Source: Zanthoxylum bungeanum (lineage: Eukaryota > Streptophyta > Magnoliopsida > Sapindales > Rutaceae). From it: DNA of 64,000 bases. Shown here piece after piece: positions 1 to 24,420 of this stretch. Position numbers and translations under genes: made by a program. A model generated the notes under the pieces. It saw only the letters and a list, made by a program, of their open reading frames with translations. It was not told the origin of the DNA and made no database searches. Numbering within the stretch: the first letter of the stretch is position 1; each line of letters starts with the position of its first letter. The DNA lies in the NCBI GenBank assembly GCA_019454045.1, contig SKCR01032770.1:62001-126000 (forward strand). Direction: 5' to 3'.

Positions 1-2209
1 GCCCATATCTAGCTAGGCTAGATGTGGATATGAGTATTTTGTGACCTTTACGGATGTGGCATCGTGTTATGGTTATGTATCTCTTATGAAACACAAATCG
101 GAAACTTTTAGAGTTTCGATATGAAATAGACAAACAGATCGGCTAAAGTATTAAAACTGTCACAGTAAGACTGAGATGGAAAATACTTAAGCAATAAGTT
201 TCTCAAATACTTGAAAGAGTATAATATTCTTTCAATGAGGACTCCTCCCGGAACACGTCAGTTTGACAGTGTGTCCGAACGGAGAAACCAAATTTTGTTG
301 GACATGATAAGGTTAATTATGAGTCGCTCTGAGTTACCATTTTCCTTCAAAGGATAAGCATTTAACAGTGCAATACTTATGTTGAATAAGGTTCCATGAA
401 AATCTTTTTGACAGATTTCATATTAGATATGAACAGGAAAGAAACTGGGTTTTCTAACTCTTGAAGATTTGGGATGCTGGGCATATGTTTGGATAATACC
501 AAACTAGAACGCAAATCGGATAAGTGCCTAATTGTAGGTTGTCCTAAGGAAACCAAAGTATAGTACTTATACAACTCACAAGAGAACAATTTAATTGTTG
601 CTCTCCATCCGGTTTTTCTAAGAGGAATACCTAAATGCAGTGGTAAGTGGAATGAAAGTAAAACTCGATAAAAATCAAAGTAATACTGTTCCAGGCACCG
701 ATTCTTTAATGGAACATAAACAGTTCATCAAGGATGAACCTGTACCAATAATCTTTGAATACACAAGAATCGCGTAGGTCGGAGAGAATCAGAAGACAAC
801 CTGGGAGGTATGGGTTTCTGATCTCACCTCATGAAGATGTCAATCTTATTGAGGAAATTGACTACGCATGAGAAAGTGATACAAGGTATCGACTCCCTAT
901 TATGGCAAAGTGCCATGAGTCTGAAATGGATTCCATGTATAACAACTATGTTTGGACACTAGTTTTTGTATCACAAGGCATTATGCCTATTGGTACTATA
1001 TAAGTCTTCAAGGAAGACATACGTGGATGGCAGCATACCAACGTACTAAGCTAGGCTTGTAGAGGAAAGGTATCGTTATCAAAATTGTGTTAATTACAAT
1101 GAAATATTTTACCTATTGCCACGTTAAATCCATTTGGATAATGCTTGCTGATGCTGCATGTTTCATTTATGAAATATGGCAGCTGAACCGAAAAATCGCT
1201 TTCCTGAAAAGGAAACCTTTTGGAGGATGTTTACAACATCCAGACGATTTTGTCGTATCAAAACTAGAAAACAAGGTTTGCCGGTTATTCGTTCCATATT
1301 TGGATTGAAGCAAGCATTAGGTTCTTGGAATTATCGTTTTGATGTAATCATAATGGTTTATGATTTAATTCAAAATGAGAAATGATTCTTTTGTATATAA
1401 GGAGGTTAGTGAGAGCGCACTGAAAGTGACTGTCCTAAATAATGATGATATGTCATTTCTTGGAAATGATATTCCCATATTACAATCGGTGAAAGCTTGG
1501 CTTTCATGAAAATTCTCCGTAAAATTCTTGGGAGAAACACCTTTATTCTAGGAACAAAGATCTACTGGGATAGATTTAAAGTTGTTAACACTCTCCGAGA
1601 ACTCGTATATTGAAAAATATACGTGACCTGGTGTCTCATACGCTTTGAGCATATGGAGTCACAACAGGTCAATCCAAGTGATAGTCACTGGATTGATATT
1701 AAGAACATCCGTTAGTATCTTAAAGAACTAAGGATGATATCTTAAACTATGGAGAAGGAGAACTTGAAGTGACTGGGATCACTGCTGCAAGCTTCATAAC
1801 CGATAAAAATAACGGTACTAATACCGTTTGAATAACGGAACAGTGGGCTGGAAATCTTCCAAGCAAGATAATGTTACCGAATAAACAATAAATGTGGGTT
1901 ATTACTACGGCTGAGGCAGCAATAGAAGCCATTTGGGTCGATAATAAATCTAATTAGATTAGATATAGTTCTTTTAGCAGCTGAGCTATGCGTCAGCACA
2001 GGCTAAAGAATTAATGGTCATCACCAACGATCCAAATATATACTTCGACTATTCATCTGATTCGTTCGGATCATACATCGTGGCGATGTGATGATTGAAT
2101 AAATTACATCAGACGATAATCACGCAAATCCGCTGACGAAAGCCTTTACTCAGCAGTTTGAGCGAACCGTACATAGTTCGGGTGTATGACACTCGAATGA
2201 CTGGCTATA
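1..2209 (+). pseudogene. Copia element C1: decayed integrase, RT and RNase H region
   Basis: Interior of a plus-strand Ty1/copia element whose 5' part lies outside the window. Broken reading frames show, in order, an integrase remnant (about 1-500, with a recognisable FTD...YGYV...MKHKSETF pattern spread over frames), an RT remnant (about 990-1660, with KSIWIMLADAACFIYEIWQ and, frameshifted, the copia GLKQA block near 1305) and an RNase H remnant (about 1880-2160). There are many stops and indels. The YVDD catalytic block of RT is lost near 1430-1465, and a stretch between the YIEK and PGVSYALS blocks near 1606-1640 is missing. The same two defects occur in C2, C3 and C4. The identification as copia pol rests on motif order and on the flanking polypurine tract and LTR. 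It cannot encode a functional protein. Confidence 0.85.
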
Positions 2210-2223
2210 GGGCAAGTGGAGAT
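2210..2223 (+). other. Polypurine tract of C1
   Basis: The purine-rich stretch GGGCAAGTGGAGAT lies directly before the LTR start TGTTGG. It is conserved as a CCAAGTGGGAGAT-type tract in C2, C3 and C4. In LTR elements this is the plus-strand DNA primer. Confidence 0.8.
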
Positions 2224-4066
2224 TGTTGGAAAATTATGACCTATAGCGTCACTATTTGTACAGATCATGGTGTTGTTGTACAAATTAACTATGTGACAAG
2301 GAGATTGCACTCTTATCATTATAGATTAGATCACTTAGATGTATAAATGATAGGAGGTCCTTATGATTAATACCAGATTAATAAGATATGAGTCAGTATT
2401 AATCCACGTGAGGTTTAATCATTAAATATCCCTAGTCGTAGTATTATCGAGACTAGACATCGATAATGCGGAATAGACTAGTATTACACTTGTGCGTGTT
2501 ATGGAAGCGTAATAGTATAGTTCTCATATATTTGGGTATTGGATACTCATGCAAGTGTAATAGGAGGTTGTGTTTAACGATGGTACAGAAACAGCTTCGC
2601 TCTGGATAGACCCCTCGGAATCCCATTGGTAGCATGACTATGTGTCTATGGGAATCCGTATCAGGGTAGGTGTATTTGGTTTTAACCTAGACTTGCATCA
2701 CTAATACTGGTGACAATTGGTATGCTTTAGTTTTGGTCGTCCAGGGCTTTAACAGGTTTTGTGTACGCCTCTACTGGGTATATTGAGAATCGTAGTGTAT
2801 TGGGTGTGATGTCAAGATGGAAGTATCACTTCAATCATATGGAGATGATGATCATGTAGGATACGGAACTAGTACTCTTAAATATTGCAATCATCGGGAT
2901 AATATGACTAGGTCATGTTTATCCGATTATAGAGACTAGTTACCAGAGATCCGATATGTGCTTCGTACGGGGCAAACATAATTCCGCCCCAGGCCTAGCA
3001 TTGACATCTGATACTGGATCATAATACAGAATACTACGTATTCTACGCCTGACAAAGATTGAATATTCTAGTAAGAATATTTCTCTTGTAAATTGGTTAG
3101 CACGTAGTACGAGGTACGTAATTAATCGGATAGTCCTATGATCGGATTTACTGCCAACATATCCATAGGTCTCTTGGGTCGCTTCCCAAAGATTCACCGA
3201 TGACAGTTGACATAAACTAGAATTAATCTGGGATTAATTAAAGATGGAGAAAATTAATCTAGGATTAATTGAGGTATTATTTATATGGGATTAATGTGTT
3301 CGAAAGAGAGAGAGCGCGATTAATTTGGAATTAATCGGTAGAATAAATTTAATAGTTAAATTTGATTTTTCTATTTTATTTATTTGTATGGGCTAAAATT
3401 AATATATCGGATATATTAATATGAATTGGATTTCATTACGAAATTAAAGTCGGACTTTAATACGAATGAACGAATTAATTTATAAATAATTCATAAACAG
3501 TATTCGTAATAAATTTACGAGGCGTCGTTATTTAATTAAATTAGATTTAATTATTTAATGATGAGAATTCGTTTAATCGGATTAAACGGATCCGAGCCGC
3601 GGCAAACATTCGTAGAATCCATTTGAATTTTGAATTCAAATGTGGGGCCCACTTTAAATGTAGTAGTTGGGAGGGTGGTTGGCATTTATGCCATACCATC
3701 CACTTTCCAACCACCTTGGAATGGTTTTGGCAAAACCATTTACCCAAGAACCTTGTTTAGGTGAAAATGATAAATTGGTATTTACCAAAACCCCTCTCTC
3801 TCTCTCATTTGTGTAGAGAATACAAAAAACACAAACCCTAGACACACCTTGGGCGTGAACTTAAAGCCTCTCATCTCTTTGATTTTGTTTCAAAATCAAC
3901 AAAGCTAGCACTTGTAGAAGTCTTCTAAGGTGATAGGGAAACCAACTCAAAGTTTGGAATCAACAAAGGAAGGATCTTCAATGTAAGTAATTCCGCAGCT
4001 TATAATGAATTTATGAACATATTTTCTTGCTTATTAGATCCTTGGCATGTTATAGGAACACTAACA
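2224..4066 (+). repeat. 3' LTR of copia element C1
   Basis: The 1843-bp LTR starts TGTTGGAAAATTATGACC and ends GGAACACTAACA, so it has the usual TG...CA ends. It aligns by eye along its whole length with the LTRs of C2 to C5. It carries the dense palindrome array described separately and a CT-rich segment near 3785-3810. The 5' LTR is outside the window. The bases after it (from 4067) belong to the LTR of C2 in opposite orientation, so C1 probably inserted into that LTR. Confidence 0.85.
3221..3641 (+). repeat. Array of short palindromes with 3-base centres in the C1 LTR
   Basis: Consecutive palindromes lie at 3221-3239 (AATTAATC-TGG-GATTAATT), 3252-3270 (centre TAG), 3319-3337 (TGG), 3398-3420 (10-bp arms, CGG), 3443-3461 (ATTAAAGT-CGG-ACTTTAAT), 3534-3552 (TAG), 3570-3588 (CGTTTAAT-CGG-ATTAAACG) and 3621-3641 (9-bp arms, TTG). 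A weaker one lies at 3472-3492. Arms are perfect in the eight listed first. Function unknown; see findings. Confidence 0.85.
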
Positions 4067-5034
4067 ATCTGGTTATCAGACTATCCGATTAAGTGCGTTC
4101 CTCGTACTACGTGCTAACAGATTTACAAGACATGGTTGGCTTCTAGTAAAACACCGTGCCTACCTAATTCTCCAGAAATATTCTTACTGGAATATACAAT
4201 CTATGTCAGGCGTAGAATACGTAGTACTGCGTATTGCGATCCAGTATTAGATGTCACATGCAAGGCTTGGAGCTAGAATAGTGTCTGCCCCGTACGAAGC
4301 ATATATCTGATCACAAGTAACTAGTCTCTTTAATCGGATAATCATGACGTTGTCATATTATCCCGATGGTTGCAACATATTAGAGTACCAGTTGTGTATC
4401 CCTGCGTGATTATCATCTTCATATGACTGAAGTGATACTTCCATCTTGACATCACATCCAATTCTCTACGATTCTCAATAAACCAAGAAGAGGCGTACAC
4501 AAAACCTGTTAAAGTCCTGGACGACCAAAACTAAAGCGTAATGATTGTTGCAAGTATTAGCGATGCAAGTCTCAGGTTAAGACCAAATACACCTACCCTG
4601 AATCAGATTCCCATAGACACATTGTCATACAACCAATGGATTCCGTGGGGTCTATCCGGAGCGAAGCTGTTTCCGTACCATCGATAAACACAACATTCTA
4701 TTACAGTTGCATAAGTATTCAATATTTAAATATATGAGAACTATGCCGTTATGCTCCCACAACGCGCACAAGTGCAATACTAGTCTATTCCGTATTATCA
4801 ATGTCCAGTCTTGATAATACTACGACTAGGGATATTTAATGATTAAAGCTTATTGGATTGATACTGTCTCATATCTTACAATTCGGAACTAATCATAAGG
4901 ACTTTTATCACTTTATATTTAAGTAATATAATTACAAATGATAAAAGAGCAGTTTCCTTTGTCACACAGTTAATTTGTACAACAAAACCATGTTCTTTAC
5001 AAATAGTGATGCTATAGGTCATAATCGTCCAACA
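4067..5034 (-). repeat. 3' LTR of copia element C2, truncated by C1
   Basis: This is the reverse complement of the family LTR. It matches the C2 right LTR from about 11971 onward (same GACTATCCGATTAAGTGCG block) and ends TCCAACA at 5034, just before the polypurine tract. About 1 kb of the LTR is missing on the left. Nested insertion of C1 into this LTR explains this, the remainder then lying left of the window. Confidence 0.8.
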
Positions 5035-5048
5035 GTCTCCCACTTGGC
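5035..5048 (-). other. Polypurine tract of C2
   Basis: GTCTCCCACTTGGC on the plus strand, which reads as a purine-rich tract on the minus strand immediately before the LTR start TGTTGG. Confidence 0.75.
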
Positions 5049-7960
5049 CTATAGCCAATCACTCAAGTGTCCTACACCTGAACTATGTACGGGTCGCTCA
5101 AACTGCTGCTGAGAAACAGCTTTCGTCAGCGGATTTGTAAGATTATCATCTGATGCATTTTATTCGATCATCACATCGCCACGATAATGATCTGACGAAT
5201 TAGATGAAATAGTCGAAGTATATACTTGGATCGTTGATGAGACCGTGATTCTTTAGCCTGTGCTGTAGCCTAGCTCAGCTGCTAACATAACTATACCTAA
5301 TCCAATTAGGAATTTTAATAGAGCCAAAATTCTTCCTTTTTGCTGCCTCAGCTGCAGTAATTTTCCGCTTTTGTCATTTATTCGGCAACAGTATCTTGCT
5401 TGGAAGATTTCCAGCTCACTGTTCCGTTATTCAAACTATATAGTACCCTTATTGTGACTTAAAGTCGTCTTTATCGGTTTGGAAACTTGCAACGGTGAAC
5501 CTAGTCACTTCAAGTTCTCATTCTCCATAACTTAAGAAAGCATCCTTAGTTCGTTTAAGATACTTAAGGATGTTCTTAACATCAATCCTGTGACTATCAC
5601 CTGGATTAACCTTATAGCGTCTACATATGCTCAAAACATATGAGACATCAAGTCACATACATTTCAAAAATATACGAACACTGAGAGAGTGTCAGCAGCT
5701 TTCTAGATCTATCTCAGTAAATCTTTATTCCTAGAATGAAGCCTGCTTCTCCCAGGTATTCCATGGAGAATTTAATGAAAGCCAAGCTTTCACCGATTAT
5801 ATTATGGGAATGTTATTTCCAAGAAATAATATATCATCTTTATAGGACAATCATTGTCAGTGCGCTCCCACTAACCTTCTTATATACACAAGATTCATCA
5901 TCATTTTGAATTAAATCATATACCATTATGATTACATCAAAAATGATGGTTCCAAGAATTCAATGCTTGCTTCAATCCATAAATGGATTGATTTAACCTG
6001 CAAACCTTGTTTACTTGTTTTAGTACGATAAAACCGTTAGGATGTTCATAAACATCCTCCTAAAGGTTTCCGTTAAGGAAAGCGGTTTTGGCGTTCAGCT
6101 GTCATATTTCATAAATGAAAAATGTAGCATTAGCAAGCATTATCCAAATGGATTTAATCATGGCAACAAGTGAAAAAGTTTCGTCGTAGTTGATACTATG
6201 TCGTTGACGATACCCTTTATGTACAAGCCTAGTTGTGTAAATTTGTATGTTGCCATCTATGTATGTCTTCTTTGAAGACTCATATAGTACCAATAGGCAC
6301 AATGCCTTTTGGTACATCAACCAGTATCCAAACTTAGTTGGTATACATGGAATCCATTTCAGACTTCATGGCACTTTGCCATAAAAGGGAGTCGATACCT
6401 TGTATCACTTCCTCATACGTAGTCGGTTCATTATCCTCAATAAGATTGACATCTACATGAGGTGAGATCAGAAACCCATACCTCCTAGGTTGTTTTCTGA
6501 CTCTCTCTGACCTACACGGTTATTGTGTATTCGAAGATTATTGGTACAGTTTCATCCCTGATGAACTGTTGGTGTTCCGTAAGGATTCAGTGCCTGGAAC
6601 AGTATTACTGCGATTTTCATCGAGTTTTACTTTCCTCCCACTTTCCACTTCATTTAGGTATTCCTCTTAGGAAATACCGCATGGAGGTAATAATTACATT
6701 GTTCTCTTACTTTGGTTTCCTTAGGATAACCAATTACAAATAAACACTTATCCGATTTGGATTCTAGTTTAGTATCATCCAAACATTTAGTGTATTTCCA
6801 GCATTTCCAAATCTTAAGGAATGTGAAACCCGGTTTCTTTCCTGTTCATATCTAATATGAAGTCTGTCTAACAGATTTTCATGGAACCTTATTCAAAATA
6901 AGCATTGCACTGTTTAATACGTATCCTTAGAAGGAAATAGGTAGCTCAGAGTGACTCATCATCAACCTCATTATGTCCAACAAAGTTCGGTTTCTCTGTT
7001 CGGACACACCGTCAAATTGAGGTGTCCCAGGAGGAGTCCACTATAAAAGAATATTATATTTTTTCAAGTAATCTTGAAACTCATATGTTTAAGTATTTTA
7101 CACTATGGTCCGACCGTAATGCTTTTTACTTTTACCGGTCTGTTTTCTCACTTCGTGTCAAAACTCTTTGAATTACTCAAAAGTTTCTGACTTGTGTTTC
7201 ATAAGATACACATAACCATAACGCGATGCCACATCCATAAAGGTTACGAAGTATTCATATCCATATCTAGCCTAGCTAGACTTGGGCCCACTTACATCAC
7301 CATGAACGAGGGCTAACAGCTCGTGGCACTTGCACTTTTACCAAGTAAAAGGTGTTTTAGGCACTTTGCCTAATAAACTAGATTTGTAGACATCATTTGA
7401 ATTAGAATCAAATCCTTCCTAGTACCCACTCTTCGAAAGTGTGGATATACTTGTCTTGTTAATGTGTTCTAGACAACAATGCCACAAATAAGTCTCATCT
7501 GATTAATTCAGTTTAAGCTATTTTTTTGTCATGTTATATGTTTGAGATTCATTTATATTCAAAATATAAACACTGTTATTCACATCTAATGTGCTTATCT
7601 CAATATCATCTTTATAAAAAAAAACTTAGGGTTCTAGAATATAAAGGCATACCCGCAACAGGTTAAACTAGATATAGAGATAATGTTCCTAGTCAAACTA
7701 GATACATTGTAACAGTTTCCTAATTTAAGTACATGCCTAAAGGGCAGTTCCAAAACTTAGGTTTCCACAGCCAAAACAACGACTCTCATCCCGTTTCTGA
7801 TTTGCATGTCAATCTCACATGAAGTCAGTATCCTGCTAATCAGCAGATCCCGTACATCAGTACATATATTTATGTACCACATCCAGTATCTAAAATCTAA
7901 TTTTAAAACCAGTAGTGAACATGTTTATAACAAACATCCTTGAAGTCGGAGCCTTATCCC
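5049..7960 (-). pseudogene. Copia element C2: decayed protease, integrase, RT and RNase H
   Basis: Minus-strand pol of the same family. Reading leftward from 7960: a protease remnant near 7890 (ILDTGCGT, the retroviral aspartic protease signature), a GAG-pre-integrase block near 7430-7510 (ETYLWHCCLEHINKT...STLSKS), an integrase remnant about 6950-7290, an RT remnant about 5640-6420 (MMYQKALCLLVLYESSKKTYIDG... and KSIWIMLANATFFIYEI at 6102-6320) and RNase H to about 5090. Frames are broken throughout. The YVDD block near 5825-5860 reads as a stop followed by DD. The YIEK-to-PGVSYALS deletion near 5650-5690 is shared with the other copies. Confidence 0.85.
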
Positions 7961-8640
7961 ATCTTCACTTCCTTCACGTCTGCCTTGTCTATACGGAAGT
8001 CATGCTTCCAATGACCCCGTTTGCCACAGTTTAGGCAGACATCTTGGGATATGTCCTTTTTCTTTCCTAGAAGACTGTGACGAATTTTGCCTTGCCCTTT
8101 TCTTCATATCCCCAGAAGTCTTCGACCAAGCCTTGATCTTCTGGGATGTTGAAGTAAGATGCGCCTTGCGCTCATTGCCCTTTTGCAAACACTGGCTCTG
8201 TCTCCTTGAGCATAGCCATGAACTCTCCAAGAGTTTTCTATTGCATTTAGTACTTCTAATATCCAAAATAGATCTATGAAGATCCTTTAATTTCAACATC
8301 ATAGTATAAGGATCTAATCCTTAGTTTTGATGAAGAAATTAAGGAGTCTTTGCCGCAAGCAGAACGAATTGAGCACTAAAGTTTTCATCACTATGAGTCT
8401 TCCAAAGCTCATGCTCCACTATTTGCTCAACTCCAGGCTTAGGCCCGAAAGGTCGTTCTATCAAATAGAGTAACTTCTCAACTCCCAGGACTATCCTGAG
8501 ATTCGTTTCCCATTCTAGAAAATTATACCGTTAAAGACATTTTCACATAGGATTATGTTCTTTGACGCTAATCTTTCAGTTATCTTGATTGCTATAGTCC
8601 AACTATCCAATCAACGATTTCGGGTACGATCTAATGTAAT
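7961..8640 (-). pseudogene. Copia element C2: gag remnant with zinc knuckle
   Basis: The minus strand shows the end of gag. Near 8005-8045 the frame reads CLNCGKRGHWKHDF, a CX2CX4HX4C nucleocapsid knuckle whose last cysteine has become phenylalanine. Upstream (8100-8300) it matches the basic Ser/Lys/Gln-rich gag linker of C5 (AHLTSTSQK...AWSKTSGDMKKR). The N-terminal part up to about 8600 is detectable by nucleotide similarity to C5 17412-18000 but is frameshifted. C2 and C5 are the only copies that keep most of gag. Confidence 0.75.
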
Positions 8641-8815
8641 GATTACTATAGTTTAACTATATAACTAATTACATTTTGATTGGTTAAATTCAAATATATA
8701 TTGATTATTATAATCCAATTATATAATCAACTATAAATGATCAGTAAAATTCAAATATTTTGATTATTATAATCCAATTATATAATCAACTATAAATGAA
8801 GTAGTTTGAATACAG
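8636..8815 (-). repeat. AT-rich tandem repeats before gag in C2
   Basis: Three to four imperfect repeats of a unit containing TATAATCCAATTATATAATC followed by AACTATAAATGA. Each unit contains TATAAT-TGG-ATTATA on the element strand, a 3-base-centred palindrome. Expanded versions occur in C3 (about 50340-50560) and C4 (about 57895-58060), and a short one in C5 just before the gag start. Confidence 0.7.
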
Positions 8816-10972
8816 TTCAACTATTTAATTAAAATAACAATTTAATATTAGCCCAACTAATATATTTATTAATAAATAATGACGAAAATTGAAATGAGCG
8901 CGTATTGGCAAGTATCTAAATGAAATTGTAAATTTAATACTTGCCTCCCACTATTTTTCGGCGAGACTCTAACCCTGTGTTGAGTACTCGGGAAACCTAG
9001 TTTCCTAGTAGGTTAGGATCCCGTTAAATAACACACAATCTTGACTTTGGCCAACAAGCTGTATGATATTTAAATAGGTAGATCTCTTAAATCAATTAGA
9101 TCTTATCCAATTCCTAGATCCGGTAGGTGCACCTCCAAGTCCGAAACATATATACAATATATATGCCAATATATCCAATATATTTTCCTAACATTTTCCT
9201 CTGAATTAACTAAGCATTGGCTTTGGCACAACAAGCTTAATGATTCCAATCAAGCGGGACCCATTGACTTTGGAAAGCTTCGTAATCTATGTCGATGAAC
9301 AAGAAGTGATATTGACTTTGGCCAACAAATCATAATTTGCCCAAGGCATGTGATATGGAACGAAGCCTTCATGATTCAAACACATCCTCGATGGACAAAG
9401 GGCTTGACTTTGGCCAACAAACCAATGCCAATCTTGGATCTTGAAAATGAATCATTCAATGGAAGGAAAACTCTTAATATTTGTTGAGGGTTTTTTGTGT
9501 AATTGGAAACCAATTAATTATCTTTGATTAGGTCTCATCATAAACCCTTAAGCATGCAGTCTAAAAGCATAATAAGGCGCGGTAAATAAATTAATAATGA
9601 TATGCGGATGGATATCTCACAAATTATTCATAGAACAAATCACTCCATTTTCTCTCACCGGCTAGAACTATTCTAACTTTTACCAAATTACATAATACAA
9701 TAAAGAAACCTCATTAACATTGAGGGGAATTGGTGAGAAGATAATTACAAAGAGTAAAGAGATAGAAGGCTGGACACGCAGGTCCAATTAATAAATTCTA
9801 AAATTATTACAATTTTCAAAATTGCCCTCACCCTTCTAATATTCATCCGATATACATTATTCATCAACACATTCATGTATTCATACGAAGCATGTTATTC
9901 AATCAATCTAATCCAATTAATTAATCTTTGAATTAATGACCATCCAATGTTCAAACAATGATTTGATTTGCGCGAGTCCAACTCGTTTAAGAATAAATAC
10001 TTTTAAGTACGTATTCTTGAATTATATCAAACTACAACTTTAAATCTAATTTATTTGTATTCAATACTAATTCAAATTTAATTCCAAATTAAACACTTAC
10101 ACTTATTTATATGCCTTAAAGACTTGGATTCCAAATCCAATCTTGATGGGTCTCAAAGGCCTAATAACATCCAATGCCATTTTAATTAAAATCCAATGGG
10201 CTTTTAATTGATTCTTGAGGCATGGGCTTTGGCCATAATGGATCAAACCCAAAATGCCAAGGCCCAATAGGAATCACCCTATTGCCAACAAATCAATTTA
10301 CGCCCATTAGGCCCAATTAAATTCTTTAAAGGGCCAAGTGATGTATTTGGACTTTATGCAATTGGTTTTGGGCCCAATTGGATCCAATCCAAAAGTCCAA
10401 AACCAAACTTGGTCAAACCAAGCCCATTAAGCCCAAATACACACTTTTAGCCCAATAAACTTTAAAAGGACAATTATTATAATTTTAATATTCCAAATAT
10501 TTTAATTATTATAATAAGTGTATTAGCCATGATTAATTAATTAACCTTAATATTTCCAAAACATCAATTAACTAATTAATCATGCTTAAGTTAATCAATT
10601 TATGCTCAACACAAATTGAAGCAAAACATATCATTTTCATGCTCAACATGCTCTTTGAATTTATCATAAACATTATTGACTTTGATTCCAATCTAATCAA
10701 ACCAACAATCAATATTTATATATGTATTTAAACACATCCAATGATGTTATAAAAAAAATCAAAGTGCAATCCAAGGCAGTGAGCATTCGGCCAAGGTAAG
10801 GTATTTGGATTTTTTTTTGATTCAATCAATTTATCTCAAATCTAATCATGCATAACTCTAAGTTATCATATTCTAAGCATACTCAAACAATCAATTTGAA
10901 GAAATCATGCTCAAAACATAAAAATCCCAAATTAAAGTCTCAAGAACCATAGAATTTTCATGCGTAAAATTG
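8816..10972 (-). other. Untranslated leader of C2
   Basis: No coding potential is seen between the primer site and gag. The leader aligns with those of C3, C4 and C5. It contains four copies of the TTGTTGGCCAAAGTCAAG-type motif (reverse complements near 9041, 9218, 9312 and 9403) and a palindrome AATATAT-CCA-ATATATT at 9168-9184. It also has repeated GGGCC/GGCCC-containing stretches at 10200-10450. Confidence 0.7.
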
Positions 10973-10986
10973 GCTCATGATACTAT
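10973..10986 (-). other. Primer binding site of C2
   Basis: On the minus strand ATAGTATCATGAGC follows the LTR end ...CTAACA. It is a decayed form of the TGGTATCAGAGC site complementary to initiator-Met tRNA. Confidence 0.7.
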
Positions 10987-12494
10987 TGTTAGTGTTCCTA
11001 GAACATGCCAAAGATCTAATAAGCATGAAAGTGTGTGATTAAGATCATTAGAAGTTGCGGAATATACTTACAATGAACGGATTGGAATTTAAAATTTTGA
11101 GAAGAGATCTCCAAGACCAACCTTTCAATGTTGATTCCAAGCTTTGAGTTGTTTCCCTATCACATTTGTTGATCTTTGAAGTGCTAGCTTTGAATAATTT
11201 TGCCACAAAATCAAAGAGAGGATGAGACCATATTCATGCCCAAATGGATGAACTAGGGTTTTTTTTTTTTTTTTTTGTGTTTGTGAGATGTGTTACCAAA
11301 TGAGAGAGATAGAAGACTTTTGGTAAAAACCAATTTACCATTTTCAGCTAAACAAGTTGGTTGGGTAAATGGATTCACCAAAATCATTTCAAGGTGGTTG
11401 GAAAGTAGGTGGTTTGGCATAAATGCCAACAACTACTCTCCCAACTACCACATGTGAAGTGGGCCCCACTTTTGAATTCAAAATTCAAACTTCAAATGAT
11501 TTCTACGAATATTTGCCGCGGCTCGGATCCGTTTAATCCGATTAAATGAATTTTCATCGCTAAATAATTAAATCTACTTTAATTAAATAACGACGCCTCG
11601 TAAATATATTACGAATGCCGTTTATGAATTAATTATAAATTAATATGTTCGTATGCATTAAAGTCCGACTTTAATTTCACATTGAAATCTAATTCCAATT
11701 AATATATTCGATATATTAATTTTAGCCCATATCGATAAATTAAATAGAAAAATCAAATTTAACTATTAAATTTATTTTACCGATTAATTCCAAATTAATC
11801 GCGCTCTCTCTCTTCCGAACACATTTAATCCCAGATCAAATCATGCCTCAATTAATCCCAGATAAATTTTTCTCTCTTAATTAATCCCAGATTAATTCTA
11901 ATTTAAGTCAACTGCCATCGGTGAATCTTTGGGAAGCGACTCAAGAGACCTCTGGATATGTTGACAGTAAATCCGGTTATCGAACTATCCGATTAAGTGC
12001 GTACCTCGTACTACGTGTTAATTGATTTATAAGACATGGTTGGCTTCTAGCAAAGCACCGTGCCTACCCAATTCTCCAGAAATATTCTTACTGAAATATA
12101 CAATCTATGTCAGACGTAGAATACATAGTATTACGTATTGCGATCCAGTATCAGATGTCACATGTAAGGTCTGGGGCTGAAATAGTGTCTGCCCCGTACG
12201 AAGCATATATCGGATCACAAGTAACTAGTCTCTTTAATCGGATAATCATGACGTTGTCATATTATCCCGATGGTTGCGACATATTAGAGTACCAGTTGTG
12301 GATCATCATCTTCATATGACTGAAGTGATACTTCCATCTTGACATCACATCCAATACTCTACGATTCTCAATAAACCCAGAAGAGGCGTACACATAACCT
12401 GTTAAAGTCCGGATGACCAAAATTAAAGCGTAATGATTGTCACAAGTATTAGCGATGCAAGTCTCATGTTAAGATCAAATACACCTACCCTGGA
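10987..12494 (-). repeat. 5' LTR of copia element C2, truncated
   Basis: The reverse-complement LTR begins TGTTAGTGTTCC and runs through the whole palindrome array (about 11530-11900, including ATTAAAGT-CCG-ACTTTAAT). It then matches the left LTR up to ACACCTACCCTG near 12490, where similarity stops. About 460 bp of the LTR are lost, and the next sequence belongs to the Tat element. An 18-base poly-T run sits near 11256-11273. Confidence 0.8.
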
Positions 12495-13269
12495 ATGGAT
12501 TGTGAGAGTCATTTGGTCTTACACAAGAATTCCTCTCGATTGGCAAGAAGTTTGGGCGCTCTCGTGATCTTCAAGGTATTCTTCACACCCTTCTTGTTGT
12601 TCTTCAATTTCTTCAATTATTTATCGTGTAGATTCGAAATGTTCTTAGACAAATAGGTTATTTGATCTAGAAAGATTTAGTGAAATTTTTGGATTTTGTT
12701 TGTGGTTTGACAGGTTTAGATCATCAAATGGGTAGAAATTTTAGGAAATTTGTGTTTATCGCTTGGAAAATATCGAGTGAGGAATCGTTGGGTAGTTTAG
12801 GTGCACAAATTGATAAGTATATTGAATCAGTTGATGATTCAAGTGAAGAAGATTCTCGTAGGGATTGGTCGTATGAAGATTTATTAGAGGGTGGAGTTGT
12901 AACATTAGCTAAACCACAGTTAGAAGCACCCGTCGAAGCGATACCTCTGAGATCCCTACCTGCCATTGGAGAGTCGAGTGGGGTTCCAAGCACGAGTGAA
13001 CCAATAAATATCCTATCTAAGAATCCAGCTAGTCGAGTGACTGAAAAATCAATGAGAGAGATGAAATTGAAATATAGATTTCCTCCATCAATAGAAGTAA
13101 GATTAGCGTCGTCGACTGAAAGGATAGATTATAGAGTTCCCGGATGGATTGGGTTCTATTAACGTCCATTCATAGGGATTCAGATTCCCTATTCTGAAAT
13201 TATTATGGGGAGTGTTGGATCATTATCAGTTGGCTCATTCTCAGCTGATGCCGAATACTTCGAGGATTA
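12495..13269 (+). pseudogene. Antisense extra ORF of the Tat element, 5' part
   Basis: Plus-strand ORF lying opposite to the minus-strand gag-pol. A good splice acceptor ends at 12713 (TGTGGTTTGACAG), so the ATG at 12728 (MGRNFRKFVFIAWK) is a more likely start than the one at 12680. A possible donor lies at 12576. The protein has an acidic serine-rich stretch (DDSSEEDSRRDWSYEDLL) and then REMKLKYRFPPSIEVRLASSTERIDY, GWIGFY, stop, RPFIGIQIPYSEIIM. This layout resembles the plant 'putative gypsy type transposon' (Transposase_28) proteins. The TAA at 13160 breaks the frame. Copia C5 is inserted at 13270, and the gene resumes at 19470. Family assignment is by recollection of the pattern, not by search. 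Confidence 0.6.
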
Positions 13270-15210
13270 TGTTTTGGACAGTTATGACTCATAGCGTCAC
13301 TGTTTGTAAAAAGACATTGTGTTTTGTACAAAATTAACTATGTAATAATGAAATTGCCTTTTACCGATTTGTGATTCATTTACTTTGATATATATAAATA
13401 CTAAAAGTCCATATGATTAGTTCTGGATTGAGATGATATGAGACAGTATCAATCCATAAATGTTTAATCATTAAATATCCATAGTCATAGTATTATCGAG
13501 ACTGGACATCGATAATGCGGAATAGACTAGTATTGCACTTGTGCGCGTTGTGAGGGAATAACGGCATAGTTCTCATATGTTTAAGTATAGGATACTTATG
13601 CAAGTACGATAGGAGGTTGTGTTTTACCGATGGTACAGAAAATAGCTTCGCTCTAGATAGACCCCTCGGAATCCCATTGGTAGTATGTATATGTGTCCAT
13701 GGGAGTCCGTTTCAGGGTAGGTGTATTTGGTCTTAACCTGAGACTTACATCGCTAGTACTTACGACAATCGGTGAACTTTGGTTTTGGTAGTCTAGGGCT
13801 TTAACAGGTTCTGTGTACGCCTCTACTGGGTTAATTGGGAATTATAGTGTATTGGATGTGATGTCAAGACGGAAGTATTACTTCAGACATATGGAGATGA
13901 TGATCACACATGGATTCAAAACTGGTTCTCTATAGTGTTGCAACCATCGGGATAATATGACAAGGTCATGATTATCCGATTCAAAGAGACTAGTTACTTG
14001 ATATCCAATATGTGCTTCGTACGGGGCAGACACTATTCCAGCCGCAGGCCTTGCACGTGACATCAGGTACTGGATCGCAATACGCAATACTACGGTATAC
14101 TATGCCTGATAAAGATCGTATATTCCAGTAAGAATATTTCTGGAGAATTGGGTAGGCATGGTGCTTTGCTAGAAGCCAACCTTGTCTCGTAAATCAGTGA
14201 AAAATATAGTACGAGGTACGTACGTGTTCGGATAGTCCGACGACCGTATTTACTGCCAACATATCCGGAGATCTCTTGGGTCGCTTCCCGAAGATTCACC
14301 GATGACGTTTGATTCGAACTTAATCTGGGATTAAAAGTGGAGAAACTTTATCTAGGATAAAGTACTATTTGAGGAGAGAGAAAAATTAATTTGGAATTAA
14401 TCGATAGAATAATGTATTTGATATATTAAACGAAATTGGATTTTGACGCGGAATTAAAATTAGATTTTGATTCGGGCACTCGAATTAATTTAGAATTAAT
14501 TCACGAGCGACGTGAATAGTAAATTGGATTTATTTACGAGGCATCGGAAAACTCGTTAATTTAGAATTATCGAAACCGAGCCCGGAATGTGTTTGCGAGG
14601 CTACTTCGATTTTGAATCACGTGCGGCCGCAAGTCACATCGTAAATCATATCGCGAGTCACATCACTTGTCATTGATGTGTGATGGTTGTCTAGTCACTT
14701 TTTGAATAGTGACATGTAGTCACTATTCATGATGGAGGTAGTTGAGTGCCATAAATGTCAAATTGGAGGGAAAAATGAGTGTTGACTTTTTGGAAAGGGA
14801 TATACCACTTTTGTAAGCCTTTTTGGCATAAGTTTGGAACAAATACACAAAAAAAACACTCTCTCCCTTATCTCTCTTTTTGGCCGAAACTTAAACAAAG
14901 GAAGATAGAAAATTTTTTTGATTTTCTTTGGCCATTCTTGCTAGCACATTCTTGAAGATTCAAACAAATGTGATAGGGAACCAAACTTGGAGCTTGGATT
15001 TCCTTCTCAAAGCTTGGAGCTTGTGGATCTTGTTCATCTTCAACATCAAATATACTCATTGGCCGAATTCACATCTAAAAGAAATGAGGGATTTTGTTGA
15101 GCATATCATCACATCCGATCGTTGTAAGTGTGATTCCGCCACTCTTCTTCCTTATTCATTCTTATTTTAATGCTCATGTGATCTTGGGACATGTTTTAGA
15201 AACACCAACA
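13270..15210 (+). repeat. 5' LTR of copia element C5
   Basis: The 1941-bp LTR starts TGTTTTGGACAGTTATGACTC and ends GAAACACCAACA, followed directly by the primer site. It is full length and co-linear with the other family LTRs. Its palindrome array includes 14320-14334 (TTAATC-TGG-GATTAA), 14345-14363 (ACTTTATC-TAG-GATAAAGT), 14385-14401 (centre TGG), 14482-14502 (9-bp arms, TAG) and 14520-14532 (TAAAT-TGG-ATTTA). Its last 554 bp are nearly identical to the partial 3' LTR at 18917-19469, so this copy is relatively young. Confidence 0.9.
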
Positions 15211-15211
15211 A

Positions 15212-15225
15212 CGGTATCATTGAGC
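15212..15225 (+). other. Primer binding site of C5
   Basis: CGGTATCATTGAGC begins two bases after the LTR end, close to the TGGTATCAGAGC site for initiator-Met tRNA. Confidence 0.8.
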
Positions 15226-17411
15226 TTGATGAGCATGAAAAATATTAGCGTAAAATTTGGGTAAAATTGATTGAAGCATGATTTAATGAAATTGATTGAT
15301 TAAGTATGCTTAAATGTATGTAACATTGTGTTATACATCATCAATTTTATGAAAAACACATTGGATGAATTTTTCCCCATTTGAGAGGCTTGGCCGAATC
15401 CTTACCCTTGCAAAGGACTTGGTGATTTTTGTTTGTGAGTTCATTGGATGACTTGAAACGGATATGGAATGACGATTAGTGATTCGATTGGATTGAAAAA
15501 CGAAATCAAAATTTTTTCCTTACCTTGGCCGAATGCAAAAGGCATGAATGTGACTTGATTTTTGATTAAATAATGTTCGACATGTGTTTAAGTTAAAAGT
15601 ATGGTTAATGGATTAAATTAGTGTTTTGGAAATATTGATTTAAAAGGCTTAATCATGACTTTACACTTAAGTTAATTGAATTTTAAAATTTGGAATATTA
15701 AAATTTGATTAATGGGCTTAATTTTGAATTGGGCTTAAATTTGTTATATTTGGGCATAATGGGCTTGGTTGGGCCAAGTTGGTTTAGGCCAATCGGATTG
15801 GATCCAAATTGGGCCTAAATCATTCCATTAAGTCCAAATGTAATAAATGGGCTTTTATGTTTAATTGGGCCTTATGGCTTGATATTAATTTTATGGCAAA
15901 TGAGGGTGATTCCTTATTGGGCTTGGTAATTGGGTTTGACCCACATTGACCAAAGCCCAAGCCTAATGAAATCAATTGAAAGCCCATCGGACTTTAATTA
16001 AACCGACATTAGATGTTAGTTGGGCTTTGAGACCCGATAAGATTAGATTTGGATTCTAAGTCATTAAAGCGCATTAAAAAGTGTAAATATTTAATTTGGA
16101 ATTAAATAATAGGATTAGTATTGAATACGACTTAAATTAGATTTAACGAGTAGTTCGATATAATTCATGAATTCGTACTTTAAGTACTTATTCTCAAACG
16201 AGTTGAACTCGCGCAAAATCAAACCGTTGTTTGAACATTGGATGATCACTTAATAAAGACTAATTAATTGGATTAGATTGGTTGTATAACATGCCTTGAA
16301 TGAATATATGTGGATGTGATGAATGAATAGTGTATATCGGATGGATATTAGAAGGGAAAGGGCAATTTTAGAAATTGTTGTAAATTTAGAATTTATAAAT
16401 TGGACTTACGTGTCCAGCCTTCTCTCTAATTGATTCTTTGTATTCTCTTCTCACCTAATTCCCCTCAATGCAAATGAGGTTTCTATTATTGTATTATGTA
16501 ATTGGGTAGAAGTAGAATAGTGCTAGCATGGGAGAGGAAAATGAGTGATTTATTCTAGGAACAAGTTGTTATATATCCATCCGCATATCGCTATTAATTT
16601 ACTTTACGCGCCTTATTATGTTTTAGAAGCATGCTTAAGGGTGTATGATGAGACCTTAACAAAGATAATAAATGGTTGCCAATTTACGCGAAAAAACCCT
16701 CAAAAGAATATTAAGCGATTTTTCCTTTCATTGAGTGATTCTTACTCAAGATCCAAAATTGGCATTGGTTTGTTGGCCAAAGTCAAGGCCTTTGTCAATT
16801 GCGGATGTGTTTGAATCATGAGAGTTTTGTTGAATATCAGTGTCCTGTCCAAGTCGTAATTTGTTGGCTAAAGTCAAGATCACTTCTTGTCCATCAACAT
16901 TGATTACGAAATTTTCCATGTCAATGGGTCCCGCTTAACTGGAATCATTAAGCTTGTTGTGCCAAAGCCAATGCTTAGTTGATTCAGAGGAAAATGGTTA
17001 GGAAAATGTATTAGATACATTGGCATATATATTTTATATATGTTTCGGACTTGGATGTCCACCTACCGGATCTAGGAATTGGATAAGATCCAATTGATCT
17101 TCGAGATCTACCTAGTTAAATATCATACAGCTTGTTGGCCAAAGTCAAGGTTATGTGTTATTTAACGGGATCCTAGCCCATTAGGAAACTGGGTTTCCCG
17201 AGTACTCGACAGAGGGTTAGAGGCTCGTTGAAAAATAGTGGGAGGCTAGTATTGAATTTGCAATTTCATTGAGATACTTAGTTTTACGCGCTTTCAAATT
17301 ATTTCGTCTAAATTATATTATTAGTTGGACTAATATAATGTTATTTTTCTTGTAACAGTTTGACTGTACCTAAAATAACGTTGACTAGATAGTTGGACTA
17401 TCGTAGTCGAG
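15226..17411 (+). other. Untranslated leader of C5
   Basis: The 2.2-kb leader has no supportable ORF. Four conserved motifs of the type TTGTTGGCCAAAGTCAAG lie at 16770, 16861, 16953 and 17132. Palindromes with 3-base centres include 17005-17021 (AATGTAT-TAG-ATACATT), one around TTAGT-TGG-ACTAA near 17328 and GATAGT-TGG-ACTATC near 17388-17402, just before the gag ATG. A GGGCTT/GGGCC-rich block lies near 15720-15980. Confidence 0.7.
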
Positions 17412-18916
17412 ATGACTGGAAAGGGAAATGTCCGAGACATAATCATGAGAGAGAATGTCTTTAAGGGCACAAACTTTGTAGATTGGGAGATGAATCTAAG
17501 GATAGTTCTTAGAGCTGAAAGGTTGTTGTACACCATAAATACACCTCTTGGGCCTAAACCCACACCTGATCAGACACTTGAGCTGGAGCTTTGGAAGACT
17601 CACAGCGATGATTGTGATACTATTCAGTCCATTATGCTTGCTTCAATGACTCAGCATTTCCGCCGAAAAAATAGGGACTTGGATCCTTATAACATGATGG
17701 CGAGATTGCAAGATCTTCATCGATCTAACAAGATGTCATAAAGATATGAGCTAGTTAGGAAGCTCTTTCGTTCACGCATGTCAGAAGGCATGTCTGTTGA
17801 GTCCCATGTGGCGAGATTGCAAAATCTTCATCGATCTAACAAGAGGTCGCAAAGATATGAGTTAGTTAGGAATCTCTTTCGTTCACGCATGTCAGAAGGC
17901 ATGTCTGTTGAGTCCCATGTGGCGCAGATGATTGCTGACATCGATGAGCTAGCTATTATGGGGATAGTCTTTGAGGCTGAGATTACTATAGATATGGTCT
18001 TGTAATCTCTCCCCGATTCCTGGAGACAGTTCATCATAAACTATAATTTGATGAACACTGACGATACTCTTGGAGAGTTATTTTCTACTCTCAAGGAAGC
18101 TGAGAAGGAGCTTCTCAAAGGAAACAAGCGCGAGGTGCACTTTGCTTCGACATCTCAGAAACCGAGGGCTGGGCCCAAGGCAACTGGAGGTGTGAAGAAG
18201 AAGAAGCATAAAGGAAAGGGCAAGGCCAAATCGTCAAAGGCTTCTGGAAAGCCAAAGGACAAATCTCAGGATGTTTGCCTCTAGTGCGGCAAGCGGGGTC
18301 ACTAGAAGCGTGACTGCCGCGAGTACAAGGCACTCCAGAATGAGACAAAGGCGGACAAGGCACCGGCCTCAGGTTTGTTTGTTATTGAAATAAACATGGC
18401 TACTTCTAGTTTTAAAAATTGGATTTTTGATTCTGGCTGTGGTACTCATATATGTACTGATGTGCAGGATCTGCGGACTAGCAGGAGACTGGCTTCGGGA
18501 GAGATTGATCTGCGTGTTGGAAACGGGACATCAGTTGCTGTTTTGGCTGTTGGCACTTTTGTTTTGGAACTGCCCTCGGGGCATGTACTTGAAATTAATG
18601 ACTGTTATTATGTACCTAGTTTGACTAGGAATATTATTTCTGTATCTATGTTAACCCAATGTGGGTATACTTTTGTATTTAGAAACACTGGGTGTTATTT
18701 TTATAAAAATGATGTAGAAATTTGCACTGCTGTTGCAAATAATGGTCTTTATATTTTAAATATAAATTTATCTCCAACATATAATATAACAAACAAAAGG
18801 CTCAAAATGAGTAACAAAGATGAAACCTATATGTGGCACTGTCGTCTGGGACATATAAACAAGACTTGCATATCCACACTTTCGAAGAGTGGATACTTGG
18901 ACGGATTTGATCCAAA
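17412..18916 (+). pseudogene. Copia element C5: gag, protease and GAG-pre-integrase in one frame
   Basis: A single frame runs from the ATG at 17412 to the deletion junction near 18916, broken only by stops at 17739, 18003, 18282 and 18303. The gag part starts MTGKGNVRDIIMRENVFKGT with the WEMNLRIVLRAERLL block typical of copia capsid. At 18270-18320 a CCHC zinc knuckle (C-x2-C-GKRG-H-x4-C) is interrupted by two of the stops. An aspartic protease follows with IFDSGCGTHI near 18430, and the GAG-pre-integrase block YMWHCRLGHINKTCISTLSKSG lies near 18830-18890. Integrase, RT and RNase H are deleted. No frameshift is seen over 1.5 kb, unlike the other copies. A 111-bp in-frame tandem duplication lies inside gag. 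Confidence 0.88.
17700..17921 (+). repeat. In-frame 111-bp tandem duplication within gag
   Basis: Copy 1 is 17700-17810 and copy 2 is 17811-17921, starting GCGAGATTGCAAGATCTTC and GCGAGATTGCAAAATCTTC. The duplication is exactly 37 codons. The copies differ at a few positions. One pair of differences creates the TAA at 17739 in copy 1, while copy 2 keeps CAA. Confidence 0.92.
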
Positions 18917-19469
18917 TTCACTTGTCATTGATGTGTGATGGTTGTCTAGTCACTTTTTGAATAGTGACATGCAGTCACTATTCATGATGGAGGTAGTTGA
19001 GTGTCATAAATGCCAAATTGGAGGGAAAAATGAGTGTTGACTTTTTGGAAAGGGATATACCACTTTTGTAAGCCTTTTTGGCATAAGTTTGGAACAAATA
19101 CACAAATCAAAAACACTCTCTCCCTTATCTCTCTCTTTGGGCGAAACTTAAACAAAGGAAGATAGAAAATTTTCTTTTGATTTTCTTTGGCCATTCTTGC
19201 TAGCACATTCTTGGAGGATCAAACAAAGGTGATAGGGAACCAATCTTGGAGCTTGGATTTCCTTCTCAAAGCTTGGAGCTTGTGGATCTTGTTCATCTTC
19301 AACATCAAATATACTCCTTGGCCGAATTCACATCTAAAGGAAATGAGGGATTTTATTGAGCATATCATCACATCAGATCGTTGTAAGTGTGATTCCGCCA
19401 CTCTTCTTCATTATTCATTCTTATTTTAATGCTCATGTGATCTTGGGACATGTTTTAGAAACACCAACA
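18917..19469 (+). repeat. Partial 3' LTR of C5
   Basis: The last 553 bp of the LTR match 14657-15210 at very high identity and end ACACCAACA at 19469. They are joined directly to the GAG-pre-integrase coding region, so everything from integrase through the first 1.39 kb of the 3' LTR is gone. The junction (GATCCAAATTCACTTGTCATTG) shows only a few bases of shared sequence. Confidence 0.9.
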
Positions 19470-19733
19470 TTCTGTTGTCGATTGAGTGTATGGCCTTTGA
19501 ATTGGGGATTGAATTCAGGGTAAAAGATTTGTTGTATACATACTATATAAAGGAACACCTGAAAGAAAAATGAAGGTATCACTTGTATCTCCAACAAAAG
19601 AGGGAGCATTTGGTGTTGGGGATTATGACAAATGACATGGGGGATTGGCGGAAAAGTTATTTCTTTGTTAGAGGAGAGAGTGTATTTGGGTCAAATGAGA
19701 GTGGTAATATTCCAGAACATTGGAGTTCGTCGA

Positions 19734-19822
19734 GTGAGTATATTTTCAGCCTTACCTTAGTACTTTATATTTATAATTTGTATGACTGAAAATATTCTTC
19801 TTTTCTTCTTCCACGTCTTCAG
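19734..19822 (+). other. Predicted spliceosomal intron in the antisense ORF
   Basis: Donor CGA|GTGAGTATATTTTC and acceptor after a pyrimidine tract, CCACGTCTTCAG. The length of 89 bp is normal for plants. The exon phases on either side do not quite agree, so either a one-base lesion is present or the donor is a few bases away. Confidence 0.55.
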
Positions 19823-20481
19823 TTGAACATAAAGTTTGATACTACCAGTCGAGTCGTATCAAACACAAAATACATTCTCAACTTGCCTGATTCGAAGAGG
19901 AATTGGAGAGCTGCTTTAGAAGAGATGAGACTGAGGTTAACTTCGCTGTGTAAAGAAGTGTTTGATTTAAAAGGTACCCCATTGGCTTTGAGTAAGCATA
20001 TTTTGGCCGTGATATTATGCACTTGGGCGATTGAGGTTACATTTGGAGAGCTGCTGTTTTTAAAACCGCTGACCCCTGAAGAATTTTTATCTGGAGCTGA
20101 AATGATGTCGGGTCCATTTATGTTGCCAAAACTTGATGAAATGAGGAGCTAGAGGAAGATTAGAAAGTCAAAGGGAATGAGACGGAAGCCACCGAAGTGG
20201 AAATCCCAAAACCAACAGAAGTCGTTCCGGTTGATGTTCCCGAATCAATGACACAGCCGATTGAGAAGGTCTCTGCTTCAAAAAAGAGGAAGGCAATAGT
20301 AGAAATGGAGGAATATGCAGAAGGTGTTATAGTGAGGATTCCTCACGGTTCCACTATAATTTCGGATCCTTCCAGCCTATCTAAATTCATTAAGCGTCTC
20401 TTGCTTGAAGAAGACGAGCAACAGTTGGCTGAACTGGGCCCAACCGAAACAAGCAAGAAGATTGCAGCTCTCAGTTATCAG

Positions 20482-23555: not shown

Positions 23556-24420
23556 TGGAGTCTATTCAAAGTTCTTTTCTTTCTTTAAGGTGGAGAAGAA
23601 TAGAAAACCTTTTTCGGTTGACTTGGAGATGAATCTATTAAGTGTATCATTTCTCTCTACTAATCGCATGACATCTTTTGGATTGGTAGGAGAATGAATG
23701 TCGAGTATGGAATTGATCTGACTAGGATTGGCTTCTATCCCTCGTCGCGTGACAATGTATCCAAGAAATTTACCTGAAGCGACACCAAAAGCACATTTTG
23801 TTGGATTCAATTTCATACCATATCTCCTCATTGTGTCGAATGCCTGCTCCAAATGTGATAGATGTTGTTCGGATTTTAATAATTTCACCAATATGTCATC
23901 TATGTAGACTTCCATTGTTCTCCCAATTTGCTGAGAAAACATTTTTTTTACCATGAGTTGATAAGTGGCTCCAGCATTTTTAAGGCTGAATGGCATCACT
24001 TTGTAGCAATAAGTGCCTCTGTTGGTGACCAAGGCTGTCTTCTCTTGGTCGTTTGGATGCATAAGGATCTGATTGTAGCCTGAATACGTATCCATAAAAC
24101 TTAACAATTCATGGCCTGCTGTAGCATCAACCATCGAATCAATATGAGGCAATGGGAAAGAATCCTTGGGGCATGCTTTGTTCAAATCTATGAAGTCGAG
24201 GCAGACTTGCTATTTCCCATTCTTCTTCCGTACTATCACCACATTAGCTAACTATTCTGGGAATCGGACCTCCTTGATGGATCTATTTTGTAGAAATTTT
24301 TGGATTTCTTAGTCAATGATCTGATTTCTCTCTAGGGTGAACTTTCTTCTCTTCTGTCTAACAAGAGGGTAGCTTGGGTCCACATAGAGCTCATAGGTGA
24401 TTAATTCTGGGTCGATCCCG
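23556..24420 (-). pseudogene. Tat element: reverse transcriptase
   Basis: The longest clean stretch (24185-23562) reads NKACPKDSFPLPHIDSMVDA, LLSFMDTYSGYNQILMHP, GTYCYKVMPFSLKNAGATYQ and MEVYIDDILVK, followed by the LNPTKCAFGVASGKFLGYIV block. The YIDD active site and the catalytic Asp of FMDTYSGY are intact. Upstream (24185-24330) the frame continues with stops (VVIVRKKNGK, QVCLDFIDL). These motifs identify a Ty3/gypsy RT. Confidence 0.92.

Follow-up and report, generated by a model that had tools for sequence, protein, structure and literature searches.

Short palindromes with a stranded three-base centre in a Ty1/copia family of Zanthoxylum bungeanum, probable RNA hairpins of LTR, leader and coding region

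The element and the palindrome array of its LTR

Why does a plant LTR hold a dense row of short palindromes, nearly all built around a centre of three bases, and what keeps them there? The window, i.e., the whole stretch of 64,000 nucleotides that was analysed, is packed with copies of one Ty1/copia family. The LTR that harbours the array (LTR A, plus strand, 2224..4066, ~1.84 kb, TGTTGG...CACTAACA) was delimited by the start of homology among copies (2224-2226) and by junction sequences, and a polypurine tract (PPT, 2214-2223) lies immediately before it. Nine window pieces were compared with Pfam, of which 18306-18935 matched gag_pre-integrs and the other eight matched no copia family, and pieces of the family locus L089 match Retrotran_gag_2, then gag_pre-integrs and rve, and then RVT_2. 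Since gag, gag_pre-integrase, integrase and RVT_2 domains are present in copia order, the array-bearing element is a Ty1/copia LTR retrotransposon, and together with the LTR bounds these matches bear out the original prediction of a copia LTR. The family is abundant in the genome (3.96 Gb): each LTR query gave 5,328 to 9,801 candidates, 40 of which were scored per query, and all three 8-kb stretches that were picked irrespective of family include parts of it. LTR start, PPT and layout resemble those of Angela/BARE elements, and with its Angela-like pol pieces we take the element to be probably of Angela type. No match to Rfam was obtained in 1-20000 at gathering thresholds, and no DNA relatives of the element were found among viral contigs, GTDB contigs and phages.

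Several arrangements of family copies in the window can be recorded here. The 3' end of LTR A (4060-4080) adjoins the truncated 3' LTR of a minus-strand copy, the two copies lying tail to tail. Copy C (13274-19469) consists of LTR, leader, gag and a part of the pre-integrase region, directly followed by a 3' part of the LTR (18918-19469, 96.6% identity with 14663-15210), the rest of pol being missing; it has a tandem duplication of ~111 bp in the gag region (17693-17929) and, from this layout, looks like a deletion derivative. The PPT octamer AGTGGGAG is found three additional times per copy in three copies of the family, at sites in pol and towards the leader's end (57755, 59914, 60676 and 61499 on the plus strand; 50688, 48830, 48331 and 47587 as well as 8952, 6642, 5872 and 5044 on the minus strand), and is also present at 17237 (plus strand). 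As judged from sequence, these internal copies are possible plus-strand priming sites.

The array lies in what we take to be the U3 of the LTR. A scan of 3221-3645 (26% GC) over spacers 0-20 found ten perfect inverted repeats with arms of at least 8 bases, the spacer being 3 in six of them, 1 in three and 12 in one; the spacer-1 palindromes are those with CGG centres, in which the C pairs with the G. On the plus strand, inverted-repeat scan and column mapping give P1 (AATTAATC-TGG-GATTAATT, 3221..3239), P2 (AATTAATC-TAG-GATTAATT, 3252..3270), P4 (CGATTAATT-TGG-AATTAATCG, 3317..3337), P5 (ATTAATATAT-CGG-ATATATTAAT, 3398..3420), P8 (TAATTAAAT-TAG-ATTTAATTA, 3533..3553), P9 (CGTTTAAT-CGG-ATTAAACG, 3570..3588) and P10 (CATTTGAATT-TTG-AATTCAAATG, 3620..3642). 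Between them lie P4b (AAATTTAA-TAG-TTAAATTT, 3345..3363), which was mapped in the A/B subfamily only (28 copies), and P6 (ATTAAAGT-CGG-ACTTTAAT, 3443..3461), which reads AAAAT-TGG/TAG-ATTTT in other subfamilies. The P3 copy (approximately 3277..3298) is decayed and perfect in other subfamilies, e.g., as ATATTTTATC-TCG-GATAAAATAT, and P7 (3472..3492) is imperfect in LTR A and reads GAATTAATT-TAG-AATTAATTC in many other copies. The list originally given for 3221..3641, of palindromes with a near-fixed three-base centre, is thus confirmed with nine perfect ones (spacer 3 or 1) and the imperfect one at 3472-3492; the arms measure 8-11, and the final palindrome ends at 3642.

In 1000 dinucleotide shuffles of 3221-3645 the mean number of such repeats was 0.825 in all (maximum 5), with spacers 0-10 about equally frequent, and for spacers 1 and 3 together it was 0.084 (maximum 2) against the nine observed. 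The shuffles are far poorer than the LTR, so the array holds as a feature beyond chance.

Conservation among copies and polarity of the centre

The same palindrome architecture is common to 98 LTR stretches of the family, which come from 101 loci with L089-L091 as background and include a few of the window's own copies. With arms of at least 8 bases, there are 510 palindromes with spacer 3 (2.4 in shuffles) and 101 with spacer 1 (2.2). A weaker excess is seen for spacers 5, 6 and 11 (30, 30 and 16, respectively, against about 2), partly due to a hairpin of subfamily C and the TTAATTCG-CGAATTAA repeat, and the remaining spacers within 0-12 have 1 to 7 each. The subfamily C hairpin, TGAATAGTGAC-ATGYA-GTCACTATTCA (arms of 11 bp, loop of 5 bases), is present at about 14640-14800 and in many of the loci L059-L088.

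When 13 palindromes were mapped by alignment columns through 91 LTR sequences (88 loci and three window copies), 6947 of 7688 stem cells (90.4%) were Watson-Crick paired, whereas pairing falls to 18-40% in the control with the 3' partner slid by 1 to 4. Stems vary among subfamilies with pairing kept, as in P6 (ATTAAAGT-CGG-ACTTTAAT versus ATTAAAAT-TGG-ATTTTAAT) and in P3, whose variants ATTTAATC-TGG-GATTAAAT, ATATTTTATC-TCG-GATAAAATAT and ACTTTATC-TAG-GATAAAGT are all paired. The majority loop is T or C, any base, G in all 12 palindromes of the class (subfamilies with at least 20 copies). P11 (3720-3740; spacer 1, centre GGC) does not belong to the class; it is counted among the 13 palindromes of the pairing figure and left out of the 12 of the loop tally. 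Rare variants within LTR subfamilies, presumably decay of dead copies, comprise 49 G.U and 49 A.C; nothing visible keeps the stems after insertion.

The array of the LTR is only the densest part, as the palindromes extend outside of it. Sense-oriented family pieces from the window and L089-L091 (6 leader, 6 gag-pol, 22 LTR) were scanned for spacer-3 palindromes with arms of at least 7 bases and compared with the mean of 40 shuffles. The leader has 36 against 1.4 and gag-pol 35 against 1.0, the latter to be read with the fact that the shuffles ignore codons; in the LTR, the 5' part has 7 against 0.4, the array 44 against 0.5 and the 3' end 1 against 0.2. Spacer-3 palindromes are hence enriched in four of the five family regions, and this enrichment is absent from 23.5 kb of other window DNA (3 observed, 2.1 in shuffles). 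Smaller excesses are found for spacer 4 in gag-pol (9 against 1.1; these nine palindromes have no common loop) and in the other window DNA for spacer 1 (11 against 2.6) and spacer 4 (7 against 2.0).

A palindrome is identical on both strands save its centre, so that C-N-A centres serve as a built-in strand control for T-N-G. On the sense strand, 103 of the 123 spacer-3 palindromes of the family have T-N-G and one has C-N-A, and the 23.5 kb of other window DNA hold spacer-3 palindromes of neither kind. An element of another kind, which is not of the present family, is represented by an RVT_1-type reverse transcriptase on the minus strand (23562-24206), and the region 19470-43000 around it contains zero T-N-G and zero C-N-A triloop palindromes.

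Two readings were rejected in view of this polarity. Half-sites for a dimeric DNA-binding protein, which the original prediction had offered next to RNA hairpins, are not supported, given arms that differ among the palindromes, the stranded centre (103 to 1 of 123) and the sites in leader and gag-pol. Decay of C-N-G centres to T-N-G by CHG methylation was rejected on the same ratio, because decay on both strands should yield C-N-A equally often.

Triloop palindromes take up 22 aligned positions in gag-pol and 13 in the leader, and at positions set in one copy the other copies pair to 72% and 85%, respectively, versus 18-36% with slid partners. Regional scan and cross-copy alignment place hairpins of gag-pol on the plus strand at 417..433 (TTCATAT-TAG-ATATGAA) and 1490..1506 (TGAAAGC-TTG-GCTTTCA), and those of the leader of copy C, likewise on the plus strand, at 16088..16108 (TATTTAATT-TGG-AATTAAATA) and 17319..17335 (TATTAGT-TGG-ACTAATA). 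Two further plus-strand gag-pol hairpins have differing counterparts: TCATTTC-TTG-GAAATGA (1453..1469) reads TTATTTC-TTG-GAAATAA in a minus-strand copy, and ATCTAAT-TAG-ATTAGAT (1948..1964) reads TCCTAAT-TGG-ATTAGGA in L089. Over its 7.2 kb, L089 has 19 Y-N-G triloop sites when one mismatch or two G.U pairs are allowed at the most, and no C-N-A site.

Flanks taken as non-family (54.8 kb; stretches of at least 200 bases with no blastn match) contain 28 spacer-3 palindromes. Two AT repeats account for eight of these; nine of the 28 have C-N-A and none has T-N-G. One of these nine lies between family matches in L091, and the loci L076 and L078 have a common repeat. Stretches with such palindromes are L005:3268-3765, L076:1-677, L078:1-583, L033:1-405 and L060:2477-3662, and going by these sequences other repeats of the plant may carry the motif in opposite orientation.

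Compensatory changes and the hairpin tip

Change between copies was counted for centres with G as the last base and a base other than C as the first (20 of the 22 gag-pol, 13 leader and 11 LTR columns). Among pairs with both sides changed, 68 of 94 stay Watson-Crick (gag-pol 27 of 43, leader 12 of 16, LTR 29 of 35 with 10 chosen copies). One-sided changes give G.U rather than A.C in 32 to 24 cases in gag-pol, 24 to 3 in the leader and 6 to 3 in the LTR, the excess being clear on its own in the leader only; other mismatches make up 118 of the 210. The total of 62 to 30 has a one-sided binomial probability of 0.0006 under the assumption of independent cells, which the relatedness of the copies does not grant. 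T-N-G hairpins with exactly one mismatch in 8 pairs have G.U 39 times, A.C 12 times and others 54 times; the corresponding 9 G.U and 9 A.C in other window DNA are equal by construction because both strands were scanned. Series of compensated stems are AATATAT-TGG-ATATATT, AATGTAT-TAG-ATACATT and AATACAT-TGG-ATGTATT in the leader, and TTAGGCA-AAG-TGCCTAA, TTAAGCA-AAG-TGCTTAA and TTAGGTA-AAG-TACCTAA in gag-pol.

Of 133 triloops, 108 are YNG, and these are closed by U-A in 73 cases, by C-G in 26, by A-U in 6 and by G-C in 3, resulting in the tip consensus Y(UNG)R. The strands cannot be distinguished by predicted folding (z -4.5 for sense, -5.0 for antisense). RNAalifold on eight copies gave 82 pairs, 12 of them with change on both sides, and recovered several hairpins; since it pairs distant arms in other places, we relied on the column-mapped counts instead.

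Across diverged copies, in LTR, leader and gag-pol alike, the palindromes exceed chance, have a strand-specific loop, keep their positions and covary in their stem pairs. Stranded centre, compensation in the stems and sites in transcribed regions support the originally proposed reading as RNA triloop hairpins, and we consider it highly probable that the palindromes are conserved RNA hairpins.

Possible readers of the hairpins and relation to known systems

Our best explanation as a whole, for which we claim slightly less than even confidence, is that dispersed hairpins of the sense transcript are under selection and that their loop is read by a protein, with Gag as the likeliest reader. The sense transcript of the element would bear hairpins with stems of about 7-12 bp, variable in sequence and tipped by Y(UNG)R. 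Selection on the RNA during replication of the element would keep them, since they are stranded, lie also in coding RNA, carry a loop motif on otherwise free stems and are compensated. A protein would recognise the loop rather than the stem sequence, because the loop has G as its third base in nearly all cases, whereas the stem need only pair. That this protein is Gag is a tentative assumption, under which the exposed G of the loop would sit in its only CCHC zinc knuckle. In retroviruses, zinc knuckles bind guanosines exposed in the loop of a hairpin or in UCUG (PMC7599994). The Gag of the family has 29 protein relatives, some from plants, and among nine aligned Gag pieces GHW[KR]R is found in eight and an intact CCHC knuckle in six, that of L089 having lost two knuckle cysteines. 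Many sites could then recruit Gag onto the full-length RNA for particle assembly, and the LTR array would be a dense site close to the 3' end of the genomic RNA. It is possible, and should be taken with more reserve, that the dozens of Y(UNG)R triloops across LTR, leader and coding RNA are kept by compensation and read by Gag for selecting and assembling its own RNA; in that case, and with the same reserve, they could be dispersed packaging signals in a retrotransposon, of which the known LTR palindrome arrays would be the densest part.

The same structural evidence serves a reading in which the hairpins are selected and a host factor is the reader, or the structure itself matters for export, stability or a switch between translation and packaging. 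It explains better the similar palindromes in the flanks taken as non-family, few as they are; with C-N-A palindromes there, the family may share the motif with other sequences, and this would weaken the case for its own Gag as the reader. To our knowledge, no host protein reads a UNG triloop, and we regard this reading as rather unlikely. Perfect palindromes could also arise in the absence of selection if reverse transcriptase switched templates at small hairpins and copied arm onto arm. A centre of three bases is the smallest loop able to fold, the two-sided changes from A-T to T-A (P3 position 4, P9 positions 2 and 4) favour such copying because the route by selection needs a broken intermediate, and correction in replicating copies only would fit the equal decay of inserted ones. 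However, template switching predicts neither the T-N-G polarity nor the Y...R closing pair nor the G.U excess of the leader, and gag-pol would need to tolerate it at 22 positions, which makes template switching improbable as the explanation.

That the palindromes are densest in the LTR agrees with an array of DNA elements that regulate the U3 promoter in cis, a role suggested also for the repeated motifs of Sireviruses, whose LTR palindromes cluster upstream of the TATA box (PMC2829016). Against this, which we hold for quite improbable, the arms form no single repeated motif, the centre is stranded and palindromes occur in leader and gag-pol. By analogy to a proposal for maize Sireviruses, small RNAs might be made from the hairpins, with the palindromes serving as their templates or being tolerated in that role. 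For Dicer-like enzymes a stem of 7-12 bp is short, and the conserved loop and the compensation at single sites would stay unexplained. Although palindrome-rich LTR regions of Sireviruses do form hairpins and are hotspots of small RNAs (PMC5311732, PMC10760457), this origin appears very improbable here. Chance in AT-rich DNA could be invoked from the 26% GC of the array region and from the relatedness of the copies, but it is refuted by the shuffles, the C-N-A control, the slid partners and the two-sided changes, and its probability is negligible.

The original prediction had known of no LTR feature organised in this way, which does not hold: Sirevirus LTRs contain clusters of palindromic repeated motifs (Bousios et al. 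2010, PMC2829016), and for maize copia CACCGGACNNNGTCCGGTG with a three-base centre is on record (PMC10760457). A palindrome-rich cis-region of maize Sireviruses goes back to Bousios et al. (2016, Genome Res), as referred to by citing papers. The present element and Sireviruses thus both have copia LTRs in which short palindromes cluster, often around a short odd centre, and by our own reading several Sirevirus motifs of Table 3 have a Y-N-G centre (OPIE-2/PREM-2 CACCGGA-CTG-TCCGGTG, Osr10 CGGT-CTG-ACCG, Osr8 CGGT-CAG-ACCG, HOPIE CGGA-CCG-TCCG; PMC2829016). Sireviruses, however, repeat one GC-rich motif with a CGG-CCG core, at least eight copies of it, which that source calls absent from classic copia (PMC2829016), whereas the present element has AT-rich arms that vary by site, a stranded loop and hairpins through leader and coding RNA; the whole of LTR A has one CGG(0-8)CCG match (3587). 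The Sirevirus 5'LTR/PBS junction is CA/ATTGG/TATCAGAGC (PMC2829016), and the two copies of the family examined for it read CA/ATAGTATCATGAGC and CA/ACGGTATCATTGAGC. The linker from pol to the 3'LTR averages 1.5 kb in Sireviruses, measures at least 0.7 kb among the rows listed and includes several identical PPTs. In L089, RVT_2 position 127 of 244 falls on 4201 and the LTR begins at about 5312, which leaves some 0.76 kb for RNase H and linker together, and the recurrences of AGTGGGAG fall in leader and pol, unlike the linker PPTs of Sireviruses. An AT/TG attachment site after the PPT, as in Sireviruses, is present in LTR A (AAGTGGAGAT/TGTTGG) and the same in copy E, with variants in two other copies; this trait may not be exclusive. 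On the strength of PBS junction, linker and missing CGG-CCG motifs, membership of the Sireviruses was rejected despite the shared attachment site.

Dispersed packaging signals with a common recognition motif have been reviewed for several RNA viruses and for the pregenomic RNA of hepatitis B virus, Gag-like proteins being only suggested in the review (PMC6281560). Many scattered, variable stem-loops around a common loop motif are found here as well; the likeness is drawn from the hairpin sequences, coat-protein binding and assembly being putative. Retroviral nucleocapsids share the CCHC knuckle and a loop-exposed G, or the UCUG linker of MoMuLV, but bind a compact leader signal with tetraloops or linkers, whereas the present element has dozens of triloops along its RNA (PMC7599994). 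BARE/Angela elements have a long LTR and leader as well. In BARE the RNA that is packaged forms its own pool, and signals for dimerization and packaging receive mention; dispersed triloop hairpins are not described in the consulted sections of that account (PMC3735527).

Palindrome clusters in copia LTRs are thus already known, from Sireviruses. What we call new is a non-Sirevirus copia element with covarying, stranded, sequence-diverse triloop hairpins through LTR, leader and coding RNA. A literature search that covered few subscription journals returned no such hairpins along the coding RNA of a retrotransposon, which speaks for novelty only weakly. How plant LTR retrotransposons choose their own RNA for packaging is little known, and the RNA specificity of Gag is described as poorly understood even in yeast Ty1 (PMC8396678). 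With a loop motif that is defined and lies at fixed sites, the question becomes directly testable. The signature, i.e., a triloop with T-N-G on the sense strand and compensating stems, can be scanned for in any plant genome. The hairpins could explain why palindrome arrays recur in copia LTRs despite attracting small RNAs, and if Gag reads them, they would represent a cis-acting system of a kind new to retrotransposons.
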